From the NCBI RefSeq assembly GCF_033170155.1, contig NZ_CP137079.1, positions 1,860,001 to 1,924,000 of the forward strand: DNA of 64,000 nt, given 5' to 3'. This document shows, one piece after another, positions 3,094 through 38,398 of this stretch. The notes beneath the pieces are model-generated. The model saw only the letters and a list, made by a program, of their open reading frames with translations. It was not told the origin of the DNA and searched no databases. The stretch is from Raineyella sp. W15-4 (GTDB taxonomy: Bacteria > Actinomycetota > Actinomycetes > Propionibacteriales > Propionibacteriaceae). A program made the translations under genes and the position numbers. Every line of letters begins with the position of its first letter. The stretch's first letter is position 1.

Positions 3094-4365
3094 ATGAGCT
3101 CCACCTCCGCCGAACTCATCCAGCACGACTGGAAGACCAACTCCCGCTGGGCCGACGTCCGGCGGGACTACACCGCTCACGATGTCGTCCGCCTCCGTGG
3201 CACCGTGCAGGAGGAGCACACGCTCGCCCGCCGGGGCGCCGAGCGGCTCTGGGAGAAGATCCACACCGAGGACTACCTCAACGCGCTCGGCGCGCTCACC
3301 GGCAACCAGGCGGTGCAGCAGGTCAAGGCCGGTCTGCGGGCCATCTACCTCTCCGGCTGGCAGGTCGCGGCGGACGCCAACCTGGCCGGCCAGACCTACC
3401 CCGACCAGTCGCTGTACCCGGCCAATTCGGTGCCGCAGGTCGTCCGGCGGATCAACAACGCGCTGCTGCGCGCCGACCAGATCGAGCACTCCGAAGGCAT
3501 CCGTACGGTCGAGGACTGGCTGGTCCCGATCGTGGCCGACGCCGAGGCCGGTTTCGGTGGTCCGCTCAACGCCTATGAGTTGATGAAGTCGATGATCGTG
3601 GCGGGTGCCTCCGGCGTCCACTGGGAGGATCAGCTGGCCTCCGAGAAGAAGTGCGGCCACCTCGGCGGCAAGGTGCTGGTGCCGACCAAGCAGCACGAGC
3701 GCACCCTCAACGCCGCCCGGCTCGCGGCCGACGTCGCCGACGTCCCGTCGGTGATCATCGCCCGCACCGACGCCGAGGCGGCCACCCTGATCACCTCCGA
3801 CGTCGACGAGCGGGACCAGGAGTTCCTCACCGGCGAGCGCACCAGCGAGGGCTTCTACAAGGTCCGCAACGGGCTCGAGGCCTGCATCGCCCGGGGCAAG
3901 GCGTACGCCCAGTACGCCGACCTGCTGTGGATGGAGACCGGCACCCCCGACCTCGAGGTCGCCCGGAAGTTCGCGGAGGGCGTCAAGGCGGAGCATCCCG
4001 AGCAGCTGCTGGCGTACAACTGCTCGCCGTCGTTCAACTGGAAGAAGCACCTCGACGACGCCACGATCGCCAAGTTCCAGCGTGAGCTGGGCGCGATGGG
4101 GTTCAAGTTCCAGTTCATCACCCTGGCCGGTTTCCACGCCCTCAACTACTCGATGTACGACCTCGCCCACGGCTACGCCCGCCACGGGATGTCCGCCTAC
4201 GTCGACCTGCAGGAGCGCGAGTTCGCGGCCGAGGAGCGTGGCTACACTGCCACCAAGCACCAGCGCGAGGTCGGCACCGGCTACTTCGACGACATCGCCA
4301 CCGTGGTCAACCCGCAGAGCTCGACGACAGCTCTGAAGGACTCCACCGAGATCGCCCAGTTCTGA
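3094..4365 (+). CDS. aceA: Isocitrate lyase
   Basis: A 423-residue isocitrate lyase, which cleaves isocitrate to glyoxylate and succinate as the first step of the glyoxylate bypass. The catalytic signature KKCGHLGGK is present with the active-site Cys near residue 187, and the substrate/metal regions ([27 protein letters not shown]) are intact. The length fits the short prokaryotic AceA class. I chose ATG 3094 ([13 protein letters not shown]) because an AAGGAA box precedes it; the frame is open back to 3016, but those extra residues do not look like protein. glcB follows after 31 bp, and ramB is divergent upstream. Confidence 0.96.
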
Positions 4366-20233: not shown

Positions 20234-21028
20234 TCAGCGTTCATTTTCCGCCGCTGTCCCGTCATCGAGCAACTGCTCCATCGTCTCGCGTTCGGAACGG
20301 GCGATGAGCGCAGTGAAAGCTCCACCTGCGTCGGTGTCGGCCTGTTCGATCGCCGTAAGATACTCGCGGCGATCTTTCGGGTAGATCGGGACAGCCGGAA
20401 ATCCCGCGCGGCGCAGCAGCACGTTCATGAGGAGGCGTGCAGTGCGTCCGTTGCCATCGACGAAGGGATGGATCTTCACGAAGTCGAGGTGCACATGAGC
20501 GGCGTGGACGATCGGATGCAGTTCGGCAGGCAGATGGTTGATGCTCTCGACCAATGCGGCGACGAGATCGGGGACCTTCAGCGGGGTCGGGAAAATGGTC
20601 TGCGAGCCGGCTACCCGTACGCCGGTACGGCGGAGGAATCCGGCTTCCGTGTTGTTGGTGCTGTAGAGCACGCGCCGATGGAGAGAGAGGATGTCAGCTT
20701 CGGAAATCTCGGGCTGGTTCTGCAGCACATCGGTGGCGTAGTCCCAGGCGATCGCGTGGTCACGCGCTTCGAGGTGCTCGCGGAGGGACTTGTCCGGGAT
20801 GATCGCATCATCCTCGATGACCATGCGCGTTTCTATGCTGGAGAGGGTGCTTCCCTCGAGTGCGTTCGATGTGTAGGTCAGCTCGCTGCGCAGCCATTCC
20901 CGGTACTGCGCGATACCCGCTTCGATACCGTCAGGGAATCGCCGATGTAGCTGATCCTGGAGCTCGCCAATAATATCCAGTTCAGACTGAATATTCGCTT
21001 CATGCTGGCGGGCGATTTCCGGATTCAT
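20234..21028 (-). CDS. Fic-domain protein (AMPylase-like, class II)
   Basis: A 264-residue Fic protein, predicted to transfer AMP or a related group to a hydroxyl side chain. The active-site motif HPFVDGNGRTAR starts at His187. The inhibitory motif SNALEG (Ser54 to Glu58-Gly59) lies N-terminal to the Fic fold, which makes it a self-inhibited class II enzyme. Start ATG 21028. No antitoxin-like partner gene is adjacent, as expected when the inhibitory helix is built in. Target unknown. Confidence 0.92.
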   Translation of the reverse strand: MNPEIARQHEANIQSELDIIGELQDQLHRRFPDGIEAGIAQYREWLRSELTYTSNALEGSTLSSIETRMVIEDDAIIPDKSLREHLEARDHAIAWDYATDVLQNQPEISEADILSLHRRVLYSTNNTEAGFLRRTGVRVAGSQTIFPTPLKVPDLVAALVESINHLPAELHPIVHAAHVHLDFVKIHPFVDGNGRTARLLMNVLLRRAGFPAVPIYPKDRREYLTAIEQADTDAGGAFTALIARSERETMEQLLDDGTAAENER

Positions 21029-21492: not shown

Positions 21493-22494
21493 TCAGCAGC
21501 GCTCGACCACCATCGCGAGCCCCTGGCCCGATCCGGCCGACACGGCGGCCAGGCCGAAGCGCCCTCCATCCTCACGGACGATCTGGCTGAACAGCCGCGT
21601 CATCACGACCGCACCAGAGGCACCCCAGGGATGACCGAAGGCGAGCGCGCCACCCTCACGACACACCTGCTCCTCATCGATCCGCAGCACCGAGCAGGCG
21701 ACGAGTACGTTCGCCGCGAAGGCCTCGTCGAACTCGATCACGTCGAACTGCGCGATCTTCAGGCGAGTGGAATAGAGGACCTTCTCAATGGCGGGAACGA
21801 TGCCCCAGCCGACCCGCGCCGGGTCGCAGCCGAAGGCCGCGCTGGCCGTCACCCGCAGGCCGGGACGGCGGTCACGCCGATGGGTGGATCCGTCGACCAT
21901 CAACACCGCCGCGGCGCCGTCGTCGATCACGGACGGATCCGCTGCGGGATCGACCGGGTCATCCACCGACACCTTGCCGACCGGCACGATCTCCGCAGCA
22001 AAGACTCCACCGGCTGCCGCGTCGGTCGCCCGGCGACGGGAGCGCTCGGCGTAGCCGAGGCGCCGGTCGCGAGTGACGTGGTACTCCTCGGCGAGCCGGT
22101 CAGCCGCCTCGGCCATCGACGGGTTGATCGGCTCGTTCGCCGACGACCCGGACTCGACCCCGCCGGCGATGATGTAGCCGGGGTTGTTGACCGAGACGAG
22201 CTTGTCCGCGGCATAGTCGATGGCGGACAGACCGGAGGCCCGGCCACGCTCGAGCGACACGGCGGGCACTTCGTCGGGTACACCGGCAGCTTCCAGGGCA
22301 TCACGTCCCAGACCGACTCGGCCGAACGCGTGGCCGAGGATGACGTCGCGGAAATGTTCGGGAGCCGGGCACGCCTCGTAGAGGTGTTTCAGCACAGGGG
22401 CGGCAAGGTTGGCCGGGGCCACACCGGCGAGTGAGCCGCCGTTGTGGGCGAAGGGCGTGCGTACTGCGTCGATGATGACCGCGTTGTTGATCAC
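21493..22494 (-). CDS. Thiolase-like protein lacking both catalytic Cys (paralogue 1)
   Basis: A 333-residue thiolase-fold protein, about 60 residues shorter than PhaA-type thiolases. It keeps EFDEAFA and the active-site His block AFGHPWGASG, but the acyl-accepting Cys is Arg (ERGRASGLSA, where family members have NxxCxSG) and the second Cys is Ser (GLAAVSAGSGQG). GTG 22494 is chosen because AGGAGG lies 5 bases upstream. It stands alone, unlike its close paralogue at 36097-37098 in the biotin ECF operon. An acetyl-CoA acetyltransferase function is therefore unlikely; a cysteine-independent C-C lyase or a binding role is possible. Confidence 0.8.
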   Translation of the reverse strand: MINNAVIIDAVRTPFAHNGGSLAGVAPANLAAPVLKHLYEACPAPEHFRDVILGHAFGRVGLGRDALEAAGVPDEVPAVSLERGRASGLSAIDYAADKLVSVNNPGYIIAGGVESGSSANEPINPSMAEAADRLAEEYHVTRDRRLGYAERSRRRATDAAAGGVFAAEIVPVGKVSVDDPVDPAADPSVIDDGAAAVLMVDGSTHRRDRRPGLRVTASAAFGCDPARVGWGIVPAIEKVLYSTRLKIAQFDVIEFDEAFAANVLVACSVLRIDEEQVCREGGALAFGHPWGASGAVVMTRLFSQIVREDGGRFGLAAVSAGSGQGLAMVVERC

Positions 22495-31628: not shown

Positions 31629-32585
31629 TCAGTGGAGGGCGAGTTCTGCCGAGTCTGCTGACGTCGGCGGGGTGGTTGTAGCGTAGTAGAGGTCCTCGTG
31701 TTCTGCTGGTGGTCGGTCGTTGCACCAGCTGTGGAGGCGCCGGTTGTTGTACCAGTCGACCCATTCGAGGGTGGCGTATTCGCCGGCGTCGAGCCCGGTC
31801 CAGGGGCCTTGGCGCCAGATGAGTTCTTTCTTGTAGAGGCGATTCAGCGCTTCGGCAGCGGCATTGTCGTAGGAATCCCCGACGCTGCCGACGGAAGCTT
31901 CTATTCCGGCTTCCTTTAATCGTTGGGTGTAGGCAATCGCAAGATATTGCGACCCATGGTCGGAATGATGGACCAGATTCTCCATTTCGTGGCCAGCGCG
32001 CCGGCGTTGCCAGATCGCCTGTTCCAGGGCATCGAGGGCCAGGTCGGTGCGCAGGCTCGCCGAGACCCGCCAGCCGACAATGCGCCGGCTGAACAGGTCC
32101 ATCACGAACGCCACGTAGCAGAACCCTGCCCAGGTGGCGACGTAAGTGATGTCGGCCACCCAGCGCCTGTTCGGCGCGGGGGCGGTGAAGTCCCGGCGCA
32201 GCAGGTCGTCAGGGCGCTGGTCGGCTGCCCGTGGTCTGGTCGTGCGGGTGGAGCGGGCCGGTGAGACTCCTTGCAGGCCCAGGGCCCGCATTCGACGTTG
32301 GACGGTGCAGCGGGCGACCGGGTGGTCGGGGTCGGTTCGGTTGAGTTCCTTCCAGACCTTGCGGTGACCGTAGACGCCGTAGTTGGCCGTGTGGACCTCC
32401 TTGATGCGCTCATCGAGGAGGGCGTCGCTGATCGTGCGAGCCGCTGGTGGGCGTGACTTACTGGCGTAGTAGGTGGACGGGGCGATCCTGATGTCGGCTT
32501 CGGTCAGCGTGACGCAGATCGGCTCGACCCCGTGTTCATCACGATGGGTGTCGATGAACCCGATGATGTCTTCTATTGGCGGTCG
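31629..32585 (-). CDS. IS3-family transposase OrfB (DDE integrase core)
   Basis: A 318-residue DDE transposase segment. HTH_21-like region ERIKEVHTANYGVYGHRKVW, then the catalytic core with Asp in WVADITYV, Asp in HHSDHGSQY and Glu in NAAAEALNRLYKKELI. It has no own start near its 5' end; it is read by -1 frameshift from orfA at the junction CTCGACCGCC (about 32578-32587), where OrfA ends in AELDRQ and OrfB continues in DRPPIEDIIGF. All three acidic residues are present, so it may be active. Confidence 0.88.
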   Translation of the reverse strand, partial: RPPIEDIIGFIDTHRDEHGVEPICVTLTEADIRIAPSTYYASKSRPPAARTISDALLDERIKEVHTANYGVYGHRKVWKELNRTDPDHPVARCTVQRRMRALGLQGVSPARSTRTTRPRAADQRPDDLLRRDFTAPAPNRRWVADITYVATWAGFCYVAFVMDLFSRRIVGWRVSASLRTDLALDALEQAIWQRRRAGHEMENLVHHSDHGSQYLAIAYTQRLKEAGIEASVGSVGDSYDNAAAEALNRLYKKELIWRQGPWTGLDAGEYATLEWVDWYNNRRLHSWCNDRPPAEHEDLYYATTTPPTSADSAELALH

Positions 32586-33058
32586 AGCTCCGCCTGCGCG
32601 AAATACGCGCTCGCCTGGCGCAGAATCGTGTTCGCGCGCCGCAGTTCGCGATTCTCCTTTTCCAACTGTGCGATTCTTTGCGCGTCGTCGGTGGTGGTCC
32701 CGGGCGCCTCGCCGGCATCGATGCGTGCCTGCTTGACCCAGTTGCGCAGCGTGTCGGTGTTGATGCCCAACTGCTCGCCGACCTGGCGGCAGGCCCGGGT
32801 GACGGTCAAGCCAGGGGTCTCGGCGAGCTTGTCACGGACCAGTCGGGCCGCGCGCTCACGCATCTCATCGGGTACTTCTTCGGAGCTGGCATGGCCTGCA
32901 TCCTTCCGTTGGATCAGACCCTCCACCAACCCCGGTGCGATCCACAACGCGGACTTCGAGACACCGAAATCACGGGCGATCTGCTCGACCGGGGCATCGG
33001 AGGCCCGCGCGGCGCGCACGACGTCGCGGCGGAACTCGTCGGGGCACTTCCTCGGCAT
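32573..33058 (-). CDS. IS3-family transposase OrfA, longer than usual
   Basis: 161 residues, against about 90-110 for most OrfA. The C-terminal 100 residues are an ordinary OrfA: MRERAARLVRDKLAETPG, a helix-turn-helix (LGINTDTLRNWVKQARID) and a leucine-zipper-like end (IAQLEKENRELRRANTILRQ). In front of it lies a second OrfA-like helix-turn-helix (PRKCPDEFRRDVV and IARDFGVSKSALW) joined through IAPGLVEGLIQ. It looks like a fusion of two OrfA N-termini. Start ATG 33058 has AAGGATC upstream. Confidence 0.8.
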   Translation of the reverse strand: MPRKCPDEFRRDVVRAARASDAPVEQIARDFGVSKSALWIAPGLVEGLIQRKDAGHASSEEVPDEMRERAARLVRDKLAETPGLTVTRACRQVGEQLGINTDTLRNWVKQARIDAGEAPGTTTDDAQRIAQLEKENRELRRANTILRQASAYFAQAELDRQ

Positions 33059-35309: not shown

Positions 35310-35340
35310 TGAACGCTGTTCACCACCTGAACGCTGTACA
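35310..35340 (+). promoter_or_regulatory. Tandem BioQ-like operators before bioY
   Basis: TGAACGCTGTTCA (35310-35322) is a perfect TGAAC-N3-GTTCA palindrome, and TGAACGCTGTACA (35328-35340) repeats it with one change, 18 bp apart. BioQ (TetR family) of corynebacteria and mycobacteria binds TGAAC-N3-type palindromes at biotin genes. A -10-like TACACT follows at 35361-35366, so binding would block the promoter. Confidence 0.75.
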
Positions 35341-35399: not shown

Positions 35400-36008
35400 G
35401 TGGCCCACACCCGCACTCCTGCCCGTGACCTCGCGCTGATCGCCGTCTTCGCCGGCGTCACCGCCGCACTCGGACTCATCCCGGCGTTCTACACGCCGTT
35501 CTCCCCGGCCCCGATCACCGCCCAGTCGTTCGGCATCATCCTGGCCGGCACCATCCTCGGCGGCCGCCGTGCCTTCCTCTCCCAGCTGCTCTTCGTCGCC
35601 CTGGTCGCCATCGGCCTGCCGCTGCTGGCCGGGGGCCGCGGCGGCATCGGCGTGTTCGCCAGCCCGACCGTCGGCTTCCTGGTCGGCTACGTGGTCTGCG
35701 CCGGGGTGATCGGCTGGGCGACCTACCGCAAGGGCGCCCCGTACTCCATCGGCTGGGGGCTGCTGATCAACGTGCTGGGCGGCATGGTGCTGATGTACGC
35801 CTTCGGCATCGCCGGCATGATGGCCGTCGCCCATCTGTCCCTGCCGGCCGCCGTCGCCGCGAACCTGCCCTACCTGATCGGCGACTCGATCAAGGTGGTC
35901 GCCGCCACGCTGATCGCCAAGGGGGTGCACGCCGCCTACCCCGGCCTGCTGCCCTGGCGCGGCGCCCGGCCGGCCCCGGAAGAGGCGGCCCACCACGCCG
36001 AGGCCTGA
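35400..36008 (+). CDS. bioY: Biotin transporter S component BioY
   Basis: A 202-residue BioY, the biotin-binding membrane subunit of an ECF transporter, with about six hydrophobic segments. Family features: PFSPAPITAQSFGIILAGTILG in the first loop and GGRGGIGVFASPTVGFLVGY. GTG 35400 is the start, with AAGGACTCGAAG upstream. It lies after two BioQ-like operators and 88 bp before the thiolase-like gene, and the ATPase and T component follow, so the four probably form one biotin-repressed operon. Confidence 0.94.
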   Translation: MAHTRTPARDLALIAVFAGVTAALGLIPAFYTPFSPAPITAQSFGIILAGTILGGRRAFLSQLLFVALVAIGLPLLAGGRGGIGVFASPTVGFLVGYVVCAGVIGWATYRKGAPYSIGWGLLINVLGGMVLMYAFGIAGMMAVAHLSLPAAVAANLPYLIGDSIKVVAATLIAKGVHAAYPGLLPWRGARPAPEEAAHHAEA

Positions 36009-36096: not shown

Positions 36097-37098
36097 GTGA
36101 TCAACAACGCGGTCATCATCGACGCTGTTCGGACGCCGCTGGCCCACAACGGCGGGCCGCTGGCGCAGTTCACCGCTGCCGACCTGTTGGCTCCGCTGCT
36201 GGAGCGCCTGTACCGGGCCTGCCCCCAGCCGGAGCTGTTGCGTGACGTCGTGATCGGGCACGCCTTCGGCCGGGTCGGCCTGGGCCGGGACGCCCTCCGC
36301 CAGGCGGGAGTGCCGGTCGAGGTGTCGGCACTGTCGGTCGAGCGCGGCCGGGCCTCCGGCCTGTCCGCCATCGACTACGCGGCCGACAAGCTCGTCTCGG
36401 TCAACACTCCCGGTTACATGATCGCCGGTGGGGTGGAGGCGGGTTCGCAGGCGCAGGAGCCGGTCAACCCGGCGATGGCCGACGCCGCGCATGCCCTCGC
36501 GGATGAGTTCCGGATCACCCGCGAGCAGCGCCGGGCGTACGCCGAGCGCTCCCGCACCCGGGCCGCCACCTCCGCCGACAAAGACCTGTTCGGCCACGAG
36601 ATCGTCCCCGTCGGCGGGGTGAGCACCGACGACCTCAGCTGGGAGGACGCCGACCCGTCGGTGATCGACGACGGCGCCGCCGCGGTGCTGATGATCGACG
36701 GCGCCAGCCAGCGCCGGCTGCGCAGGCCGGGGCTGCGGGTCACCGCCAGCGCGACCTTCGGCTGTGACCCCGCCCGGGTCGGCTGGGGCATCGTGCCGGC
36801 GATCGAGAAGGTCCTCTACGCCACCCGGCTGAAGCTGGACCAGTTCGACGCGATCGAGTTCGACGAGGCGTTCGCCTCCAACGTGCTGGTCGCCTGCTCC
36901 GCCCTGCACCTGGATCCCGAACGGATCTGCCGCCAGGGCGGCGCGATCGCCTTCGGCCACCCGTGGGGCGCCTCCGGTGCGGTGGTGATCACCCGGCTGT
37001 TCGCCCAGCTGGTCCGCCAGAGCCAAGGCCGCTTCGGCCTGGCCGCCGTCTCGGCCGGCTCCGGCCAGGGCATCGCCATGGTGGTCGAACGGTGCTGA
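36097..37098 (+). CDS. Thiolase-like protein lacking both catalytic Cys, in the biotin ECF operon (paralogue 2)
   Basis: A 333-residue thiolase-fold protein. The His block is intact (His288 in AFGHPWGASG) and EFDEAFA corresponds to the NEAFA loop, but the nucleophilic Cys is Arg85 (ERGRASGLSA) and the second catalytic Cys is Ser319 (AAVSAGSGQG). GTG 36097 has GGAGG upstream. It lies between bioY and the ATPase gene, whose start it overlaps by 7 bp, so the link to biotin uptake is tight. It may act on a biotin precursor or acyl-CoA without Cys chemistry, or may be a binding/regulatory protein. An ordinary acetyltransferase role is unlikely. Confidence 0.85.
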   Translation: MINNAVIIDAVRTPLAHNGGPLAQFTAADLLAPLLERLYRACPQPELLRDVVIGHAFGRVGLGRDALRQAGVPVEVSALSVERGRASGLSAIDYAADKLVSVNTPGYMIAGGVEAGSQAQEPVNPAMADAAHALADEFRITREQRRAYAERSRTRAATSADKDLFGHEIVPVGGVSTDDLSWEDADPSVIDDGAAAVLMIDGASQRRLRRPGLRVTASATFGCDPARVGWGIVPAIEKVLYATRLKLDQFDAIEFDEAFASNVLVACSALHLDPERICRQGGAIAFGHPWGASGAVVITRLFAQLVRQSQGRFGLAAVSAGSGQGIAMVVERC

Positions 37099-37784
37099 TC
37101 GAGGCCGACCACGTCACCCACACGTACGGCGACGGACCCGCCGCCCGGACGGTGCTGCGGGACCTGTCGGTGCGGCTGACCGAGCGCCGGGTGGGCATCG
37201 TGGGCCACAACGGGTCCGGCAAGTCGACCTTCGCCCGGATGGTGAACGGCCTGATCGTCCCCACCCGGGGCAGGATCCTCGTCGACGGTCGGGACACCGC
37301 CAGCCAGGCGCGGGAGATCCGCAAGCACGTCGGTTTCCTCTTCACCGACCCGGACAACCAGATCATCATGCCGACGGTTGCCGAGGACGTCGCCTTCGGG
37401 CTGCGTCGCAGCAAGCTGCCCGCCGACGAGATCCAGCGCCGGGTCGGCGAGCTGCTGGACCGGTTCGGTCTGGCCGGCCACGCCGACCATCCGGCTCATC
37501 TGCTCTCCGGTGGGCAGAAGCAGTTGCTCGCCCTCGCCTCGGTGCTCGTCACCCGCCCCGACATCCTGGTGATGGACGAGCCGACCACCCTGCTCGATCT
37601 GCGCAACGCGCGGATCATCGGCGAGGTGGTGGCCGGGCTGGACCAGTCGGTGCTGCTGGTCACCCACCACCTGCACCTGCTGGAGTCCTTCGACCGGGTG
37701 CTCGTCTTCGACGACGGCCGGCTGGTCGCCGACGACGCACCGGCGGCCGCGCTGGCCCACTACCGGGAGCTGATGGCGGCTTGA
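37092..37784 (+). CDS. bioM: ECF transporter ATPase (BioM type)
   Basis: A 230-residue ATPase of the biotin ECF transporter. Walker A GHNGSGKST (about 38-46), Q-loop TDPDNQIIMP, signature LLSGGQKQLLAL, Walker B ILVMDEPTT with LLDLRN, and H-loop VTHHLHLL. The PDNQ Q-loop is typical of EcfA. GTG 37092 overlaps the thiolase-like stop by 7 bp and the stop overlaps the T-component start. Only one ATPase is present, as in BioMNY systems. Confidence 0.93.
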   Translation: MLIEADHVTHTYGDGPAARTVLRDLSVRLTERRVGIVGHNGSGKSTFARMVNGLIVPTRGRILVDGRDTASQAREIRKHVGFLFTDPDNQIIMPTVAEDVAFGLRRSKLPADEIQRRVGELLDRFGLAGHADHPAHLLSGGQKQLLALASVLVTRPDILVMDEPTTLLDLRNARIIGEVVAGLDQSVLLVTHHLHLLESFDRVLVFDDGRLVADDAPAAALAHYRELMAA

Positions 37785-38398
37785 TGCAGTCCACTCTCGG
37801 CCTCTACCGGCCCGGCACCAGCGCGCTGCACCGGATCCCGGCCGGCCCGAAGCTGCTCGCCCTGCTGGTGCTCGGTGCTTCCTCGGTCTTCCTCACCTAC
37901 TGGTGGCTGGTGCTCGCCCTGCTGGCCGCGCTGCTGGGGGCGTACGCGCTGGCCGGCATCGGCCCGCGGGTCGTCGTCCGGCAGCTCCGGCCGATGCTGT
38001 GGCTGCTGGCCTTCACCGCTGCCTATCACGTCTGGGCCACGTCCTGGCAGCGCGCGGTGGTGGTCACCTGCACCATCGTGCTGCTGGTGCTCACCGCCGC
38101 CCTGGTCACCCTCACCACGCCCACCTCGGCGCTGATCGACGCCGTGGTGCGGGTGGTCGGGCCGCTGCGCCGGCTGGGGGTGGACCCGGACCGGGTCGGT
38201 CTGATGCTCACCCTCGGCATCCGCTGTGTCCCGCTGGTGGCCGATCTGGCCGCCCAGGTGCGCGAGGCTCAGCTGGCCCGCGGGGTCGGGACGAGCTGGA
38301 AGGCCTTCGCCGTCCCGCTGGTCGTCCGCGCCCTGCGCGAGGCCGACGCGATGGGCGAGGCGCTGGTCGCCCGCGGTGTCGACGACGAGCCGTCCTGA
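37784..38398 (+). CDS. bioN: ECF transporter T component (BioN type)
   Basis: A 204-residue membrane protein with about five segments in its first 140 residues and the CbiQ/EcfT cytoplasmic coupling helix at the end: REAQLARGV (the Ala-Arg-Gly signature) and EADAMGEALVARGVDD (a second ARG motif). These bind the ATPase grooves. ATG 37784 overlaps the bioM stop. It completes the S-A-T set with bioY. Confidence 0.93.
   Translation: MQSTLGLYRPGTSALHRIPAGPKLLALLVLGASSVFLTYWWLVLALLAALLGAYALAGIGPRVVVRQLRPMLWLLAFTAAYHVWATSWQRAVVVTCTIVLLVLTAALVTLTTPTSALIDAVVRVVGPLRRLGVDPDRVGLMLTLGIRCVPLVADLAAQVREAQLARGVGTSWKAFAVPLVVRALREADAMGEALVARGVDDEPS

Follow-up and report, generated by a model that had tools for sequence, protein, structure and literature searches.

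The window (the whole 64,000-nucleotide stretch of the Raineyella sp. W15-4 genome analysed here) carries a biotin ECF transporter operon that includes a thiolase-like gene, a pair of predicted regulatory sites upstream of the operon, and a second, solitary copy of the thiolase-like gene:

21493-22494, - strand: second Cys-less thiolase paralogue, solitary, 75% identical to the operon copy
35310-35322, no strand assigned: BioQ-type operator 1, TGAACGCTGTTCA, which fits the predicted BioQ site exactly
35328-35340, no strand assigned: BioQ-type operator 2, TGAACGCTGTACA, 18 bp downstream of operator 1
35400-36008, + strand: bioY, S component of a biotin ECF transporter (Pfam BioY, PF02632, 1.7e-34)
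36097-37098, + strand: Cys-less thiolase homologue (candidate pseudo-thiolase), with Arg85, Asp256, His288 and Ser319
37092-37784, + strand: bioM-like ECF ATPase (ABC_tran, 3.1e-29; sub-threshold with ECF_ATPase models)
37784-38398, + strand: bioN-like T component (CbiQ/EcfT, 4.4e-15)

The thiolase ORF (36097-37098, + strand) reads from a GTG at 36097 to a TGA at 37096-37098 (333 aa), with a GGAGG located 5 bases 5' of the start codon. It is separated from bioY by 88 bases, and the GTG of bioM at 37092 gives a 7-base overlap with its stop; the gene of a YhfT-like ligase is not adjacent. The first-pass annotation had placed a Cys-less thiolase within a biotin ECF operon, and the neighbours (bioY, an ECF-type ATPase and a CbiQ/EcfT protein) bear this out, together with the overlap with bioM. 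The order bioY, Cys-less thiolase, bioM, bioN is identical in all four Raineyella genomes examined. The window's genome has two Cys-less copies and the other three Raineyella genomes have one each. The second copy adjoins a Fic-domain gene (20234-21028), and a gene pair assigned to IS3-type transposases by resemblance only (31629-33058, - strand) lies between this copy and the biotin operon.

The thiolase fold proposed at first reading was confirmed by the Pfam domains Thiolase_N and Thiolase_C, by an AlphaFold model (pLDDT 93.8, pTM 0.94), and by Foldseek and VIA-align, in which classical thiolases matched along the full chain (for 3ss6, Z 49.8 and 1.7 A across 330 residues). With TIGR01930 the protein scored 216.8 bits, below the cut-off of 240.55 that its Cys-type relatives pass at 322-402, and with PRK06690 (NCBIfam), the nearest specific equivalog model, which we take to represent YhfS, it reached 186 bits vs a cut-off of 498 (Actinomycete Cys-type proteins, 300-313). 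The suggestion of an SCP2-type lyase was not upheld: in structure the protein is best matched by classical thiolases, the loop that corresponds by position in the thiolase alignment to the Y-D-C/H-F/Y motif of SCP2 lyases reads EFDEAF, and the scanned operon proteins did not include a DUF35 partner.

In a 46-row alignment, the position of the nucleophilic Cys (Cys89 in Zoogloea numbering) is occupied by Arg85 in the five Raineyella Cys-less copies and by Cys in all 41 relatives, the surrounding loop reading SVERGRASGL in the window protein vs TVDRQCGSGL in most relatives. The second Cys (Cys378, acid/base) is also absent from the window protein, its position being held by Ser319; since the relatives show Ala, Ser or Gly there (30, 6 and 1 sequences, respectively, with 4 gaps), Ser319 is a family trait and the special change is that from Cys to Arg85 only. 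The two Cys losses claimed at first reading were therefore half sustained: the replacement of the nucleophile is real, and the second Cys is absent family-wide. The active-site His (His348) is kept, as had been claimed (His288, invariant in 46/46 sequences), and the active-site Asn position is Asp256 in the window protein and Val, Asn or Thr in the others. The alignment revealed no catalytic Cys at an offset position: none of the five other conserved Cys (residues 42, 223, 267, 278 and 333) falls within an active-site motif, and all are aligned with variable positions of the relatives.

Further losses affect the body of the protein. Among 83 near-invariant columns of the family, 47 are retained, 29 altered and 7 deleted in the Cys-less form, and its loop domain (from AGG to DGAA) comprises 82 residues vs mostly 109-133 in relatives. 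About 40-45 residues are missing from this domain, the GN[SA]CG stretch included (TAGNSCG of the relatives is replaced by ADPSVID); in the Zoogloea thiolase, the loop-domain region with this stretch touches CoA. The fold, the GHPWGASG loop, SAGSGQG and the reading frame are retained.

The retained residues may instead belong to an enzyme that dispenses with Cys, i.e., a lyase, hydrolase or decarboxylase that would act on the thioester of a biotin precursor or vitamer through His288 with Asp256 and/or Ser319. These three residues and their neighbouring loops are invariant across the five Cys-less copies, the thiolase superfamily includes lyases without a nucleophilic Cys (PMC12329534), and the operators suggest a role linked to biotin; conservation of His288, GHPWGASG and SAGSGQG may reflect retained chemistry, and Ser319 and Asp256 could participate in Cys-free catalysis, both of which count against a pseudo-thiolase. 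We nevertheless regard such an enzyme as rather unlikely, given that the loop domain is partly deleted and the GN[SA]CG stretch not conserved, that the scanned operon proteins include no DUF35 and the Y-D-x-F motif is missing, and that the nucleophile position is filled by the side chain of an Arg.

To place the operon among other bacteria, we used an even class sample of 395 Actinomycete genomes (family membership at E <= 1e-110), in which the biotin-operon thiolase family was found in 46 genomes (21 of 138 genera). With the window's own genome left out, bioY, ligase and thiolase are consecutive in 42 of the 45 family genomes, and the nucleophilic Cys is kept in 45/45 and the second Cys seen in none. 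The order bioY-ligase-thiolase-bioM-bioN is common across Actinomycetes (bioM detection by probes was incomplete in this comparison) and its carriers include eight genomes from a different family of the same order, G023 (same family), Prauserella and an Actinomycetales MAG. In the alphaproteobacterium Azospirillum sp. B510, plasmid pAB510c carries bioM-bioN-bioY-AMP-binding-thiolase (L169 1589-6158). The biotin-operon thiolases of other genomes (loci L115-L159 and L055-L063) have Ala, Ser or Gly at the second-Cys position; the whole family thus looks single-Cys from its alignment, and ordinary thiolysis or condensation is probably not the family chemistry, even where the nucleophile is kept. 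The first-pass annotation had asked for the bioY-thiolase-bioM-bioN order in other genomes: it holds in the four Raineyella genomes, but neighbouring genera have either bioY-ligase-(Cys)thiolase-bioM-bioN or bare bioYMN, the latter in several Propionibacteriaceae. The absence of the order from neighbouring genera, named at first reading as a refutation, therefore applies in part.

These gene orders bear on whether the Cys-less protein binds biotin or a precursor and acts directly with BioY/BioMN, as a trap or delivery factor, without a Cys-type thiolase. The slot between bioY and bioM and the stop/start overlap, conserved in four genomes, speak for such a link to the transporter. However, bare bioYMN in several relatives indicates that the transporter there has no need of a thiolase, and a thiolase ancestor already stood in the identical slot, so that the position may be merely inherited; we consider this explanation improbable.

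The Cys-less form was found in the four Raineyella genomes only; even samples of the order (294 genomes) and of the class (395 genomes), searched with strict E-values, gave none outside this genus, and two further family matches in the order sample (L115 and L160) carry the nucleophilic Cys. All four Raineyella genomes encode, in addition, a separate Cys-type ligase-thiolase pair elsewhere (L069, L072, L073 and L161), which in the window's genome is:

L069 4742-6960 (about G000:C1:1836741-1838960), - strand: Cys-type ligase-thiolase pair, nucleophile motif IDRQCGSGM

The Cys-less clade received support of 100/100 and sits on a stem of 1.58 (67-row tree) or 1.04 (26-row tree) changes per column, with short branches inside it. 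Origin by duplication inside Raineyella was rejected (a clade of Cys-less and Raineyella Cys-type sequences without G023, AU p 0.0006, a value tempered by the long branches). dN/dS (NG86) is 0.17-0.34 within the Cys-less clade vs 0.12-0.17 for the Cys-type, and the window copy differs from the copy of G003, another Raineyella genome, by 30 amino acids vs 66 expected neutrally (minimum 52 in 1000 simulations). The long stem, the short inner branches, the low dN/dS and the 30 vs 66 differences point to one fast change that is now held: along the stem branch the Cys-less lineage lost the adjacent ligase and the 40-45 loop residues, and since then it is, as judged from codon comparisons, under purifying selection. 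The loss of nucleophile, loops and ligase gene would also fit a decaying remnant, kept only for its operon position and translational coupling to bioM, for whose expression the stop/start overlap could matter. Decay is opposed by a dN/dS well below 1, by the neutral simulation, and by the five copies, which are exactly 333 codons long and free of frameshifts and gaps, the solitary copy outside the biotin operons being likewise intact; we find a remnant very improbable.

The predicted actinobacterial BioQ site is TGAAC-N3-GTTCA (PMC3398298). The tandem sites of this type that precede bioY in the window are arranged in the same way in the Raineyella genomes G001 and G003. BioQ-type sites are few per Raineyella genome and several of them lie at biotin genes. 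In the window's genome they occur upstream of bioY, where the ligase-thiolase pair has its 5' end, in the interval that separates bioB from a TetR gene, and close to a further TetR gene; in the other three they accompany the bioY operon as well as the Cys-type ligase-thiolase pair (G003 has an additional site about 140-170 bases upstream of bioA). Those of both the bioY operon and the Cys-type pair fit TGAAC-N3-GTWCA exactly. The TetR-family gene is divergent to bioB (L070 3277-5205), with TGAACGGCGTTCA at 3965, at their 5' ends; the two genes are a probable BioQ-bioB pair, the TetR protein being the putative BioQ. From these predicted sites, the window operon is probably biotin-regulated. No BioQ-type site within one mismatch was found near the second Cys-less copy (21493-22494), so biotin control is not universal for Cys-less copies.

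A context of de novo biotin synthesis was considered and rejected, as no bioF match above the cut-off was found in the Raineyella genomes, and bioA exceeded it in G003 only. The best bioF match in the window's genome is an acyltransferase/ACP/AONS-like fusion (domains judged by eye) that follows a ketosynthase gene:

L164 5274-9796 (about G000:C1:2543273-2547795): ketosynthase and AONS-like fusion, a cluster of secondary-metabolite type that mimics bioF

We are evenly divided on whether the window protein is a pseudo-thiolase, a non-catalytic binding or scaffolding protein whose likeliest partner is a Cys-type thiolase, and we favour this as the best explanation. Its ancestor would have been a thiolase beside an acyl-CoA-ligase-like enzyme in an Actinomycete bioY-ligase-thiolase-bioM-bioN operon, from which the window copy would have diverged by exchange of the nucleophilic Cys for Arg and of the active-site Asn position for Asp, by loss of part of the loop domain and by disappearance of the adjacent ligase. 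Because BioQ-type operators precede the operon, the protein would be made when biotin is scarce. Thiolase chemistry would no longer be possible for the Cys-less protein, and CoA binding is presumably lost with catalysis, which leaves a role in binding or scaffolding. We infer that the likeliest partner would be the Cys-type thiolase encoded with a ligase at another operator-bearing locus; by analogy with KS-alpha/KS-beta, the Cys-less and Cys-type proteins may form a mixed dimer or tetramer. Within the same class of explanation, the protein could alternatively bind a biotin vitamer as a homodimer. More speculatively, and with considerable doubt, the Cys-less protein could be a regulatory subunit induced by biotin starvation, which together with the single-Cys thiolase and the ligase would control a thioester reaction of biotin salvage.

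The claim made at first reading that no role had been described for such a protein was too strong, since the thiolase/acyl-CoA-ligase genes yhfS-yhfT belong to the BirA biotin regulon with bioY in B. subtilis and S. aureus (PMC6391492, PMC7235819, PMC11089781). Thiolase-ligase pairs in the biotin regulon were thus known already, and the pseudo-thiolase branch is new. In the literature we found thiolase/ligase genes described as biotin-controlled in Gram-positives, and no report of their reaction; no literature on the Actinomycete bioY-ligase-thiolase-ECF operon or on the pseudo-thiolase was found in a search that mostly excluded subscription papers. The association of thiolase, ligase and biotin is wide in Actinomycetes and extends to Azospirillum; the operon thiolase there has a single Cys and lacks the usual acid/base one, and the genus Raineyella has evolved, and retained, a form in which all catalytic Cys are missing. 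As Cys-type and Cys-less copies occur here as a natural pair, each preceded by BioQ-type operators, the function of the system is accessible to simple tests. Should the regulatory-subunit reading be true, it would mean a dedicated pseudoenzyme in ECF vitamin uptake and provide a handle on the function of YhfS/YhfT.

Among known systems, KS-alpha/KS-beta (chain length factor) provides the case of a Cys-less protein of thiolase fold that persists because it pairs with a subunit that has the Cys; those pairs serve polyketide synthesis, and for the window protein a heteromer is only presumed. The SCP2-thiolase-like aldolases Ltp2/Sal belong to the thiolase superfamily and perform chemistry without a nucleophilic Cys (PMC12329534), but they have a DUF35 partner and the Y-D-C/H-F/Y motif, whereas the window protein lacks the motif and the scan of its operon proteins showed no DUF35. 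BioYMN of Corynebacterium glutamicum is a biotin ECF transporter, and BioQ sites have been predicted for bio genes there (PMC3398298); its operon is described as bioY, bioM and bioN, with the thiolase gene absent, whereas the window operon has one. YhfS/YhfT resemble the window system in that a thiolase-like protein is tied to biotin repression alongside bioY, but they include an acyl-CoA-ligase partner, and the window protein has neither an adjacent ligase nor a nucleophilic Cys; on the level of sequence it is set apart by the PRK06690 profile score. The Actinomycete bioY-ligase-thiolase-bioM-bioN operons have a thiolase of the same family in the same slot before bioM. In the operons of Actinomycetes and Azospirillum sp. 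B510 the thiolase retains its nucleophile (DRQC) and has a longer loop domain, and a ligase is encoded with it, in contrast to the Raineyella form, which is without these.
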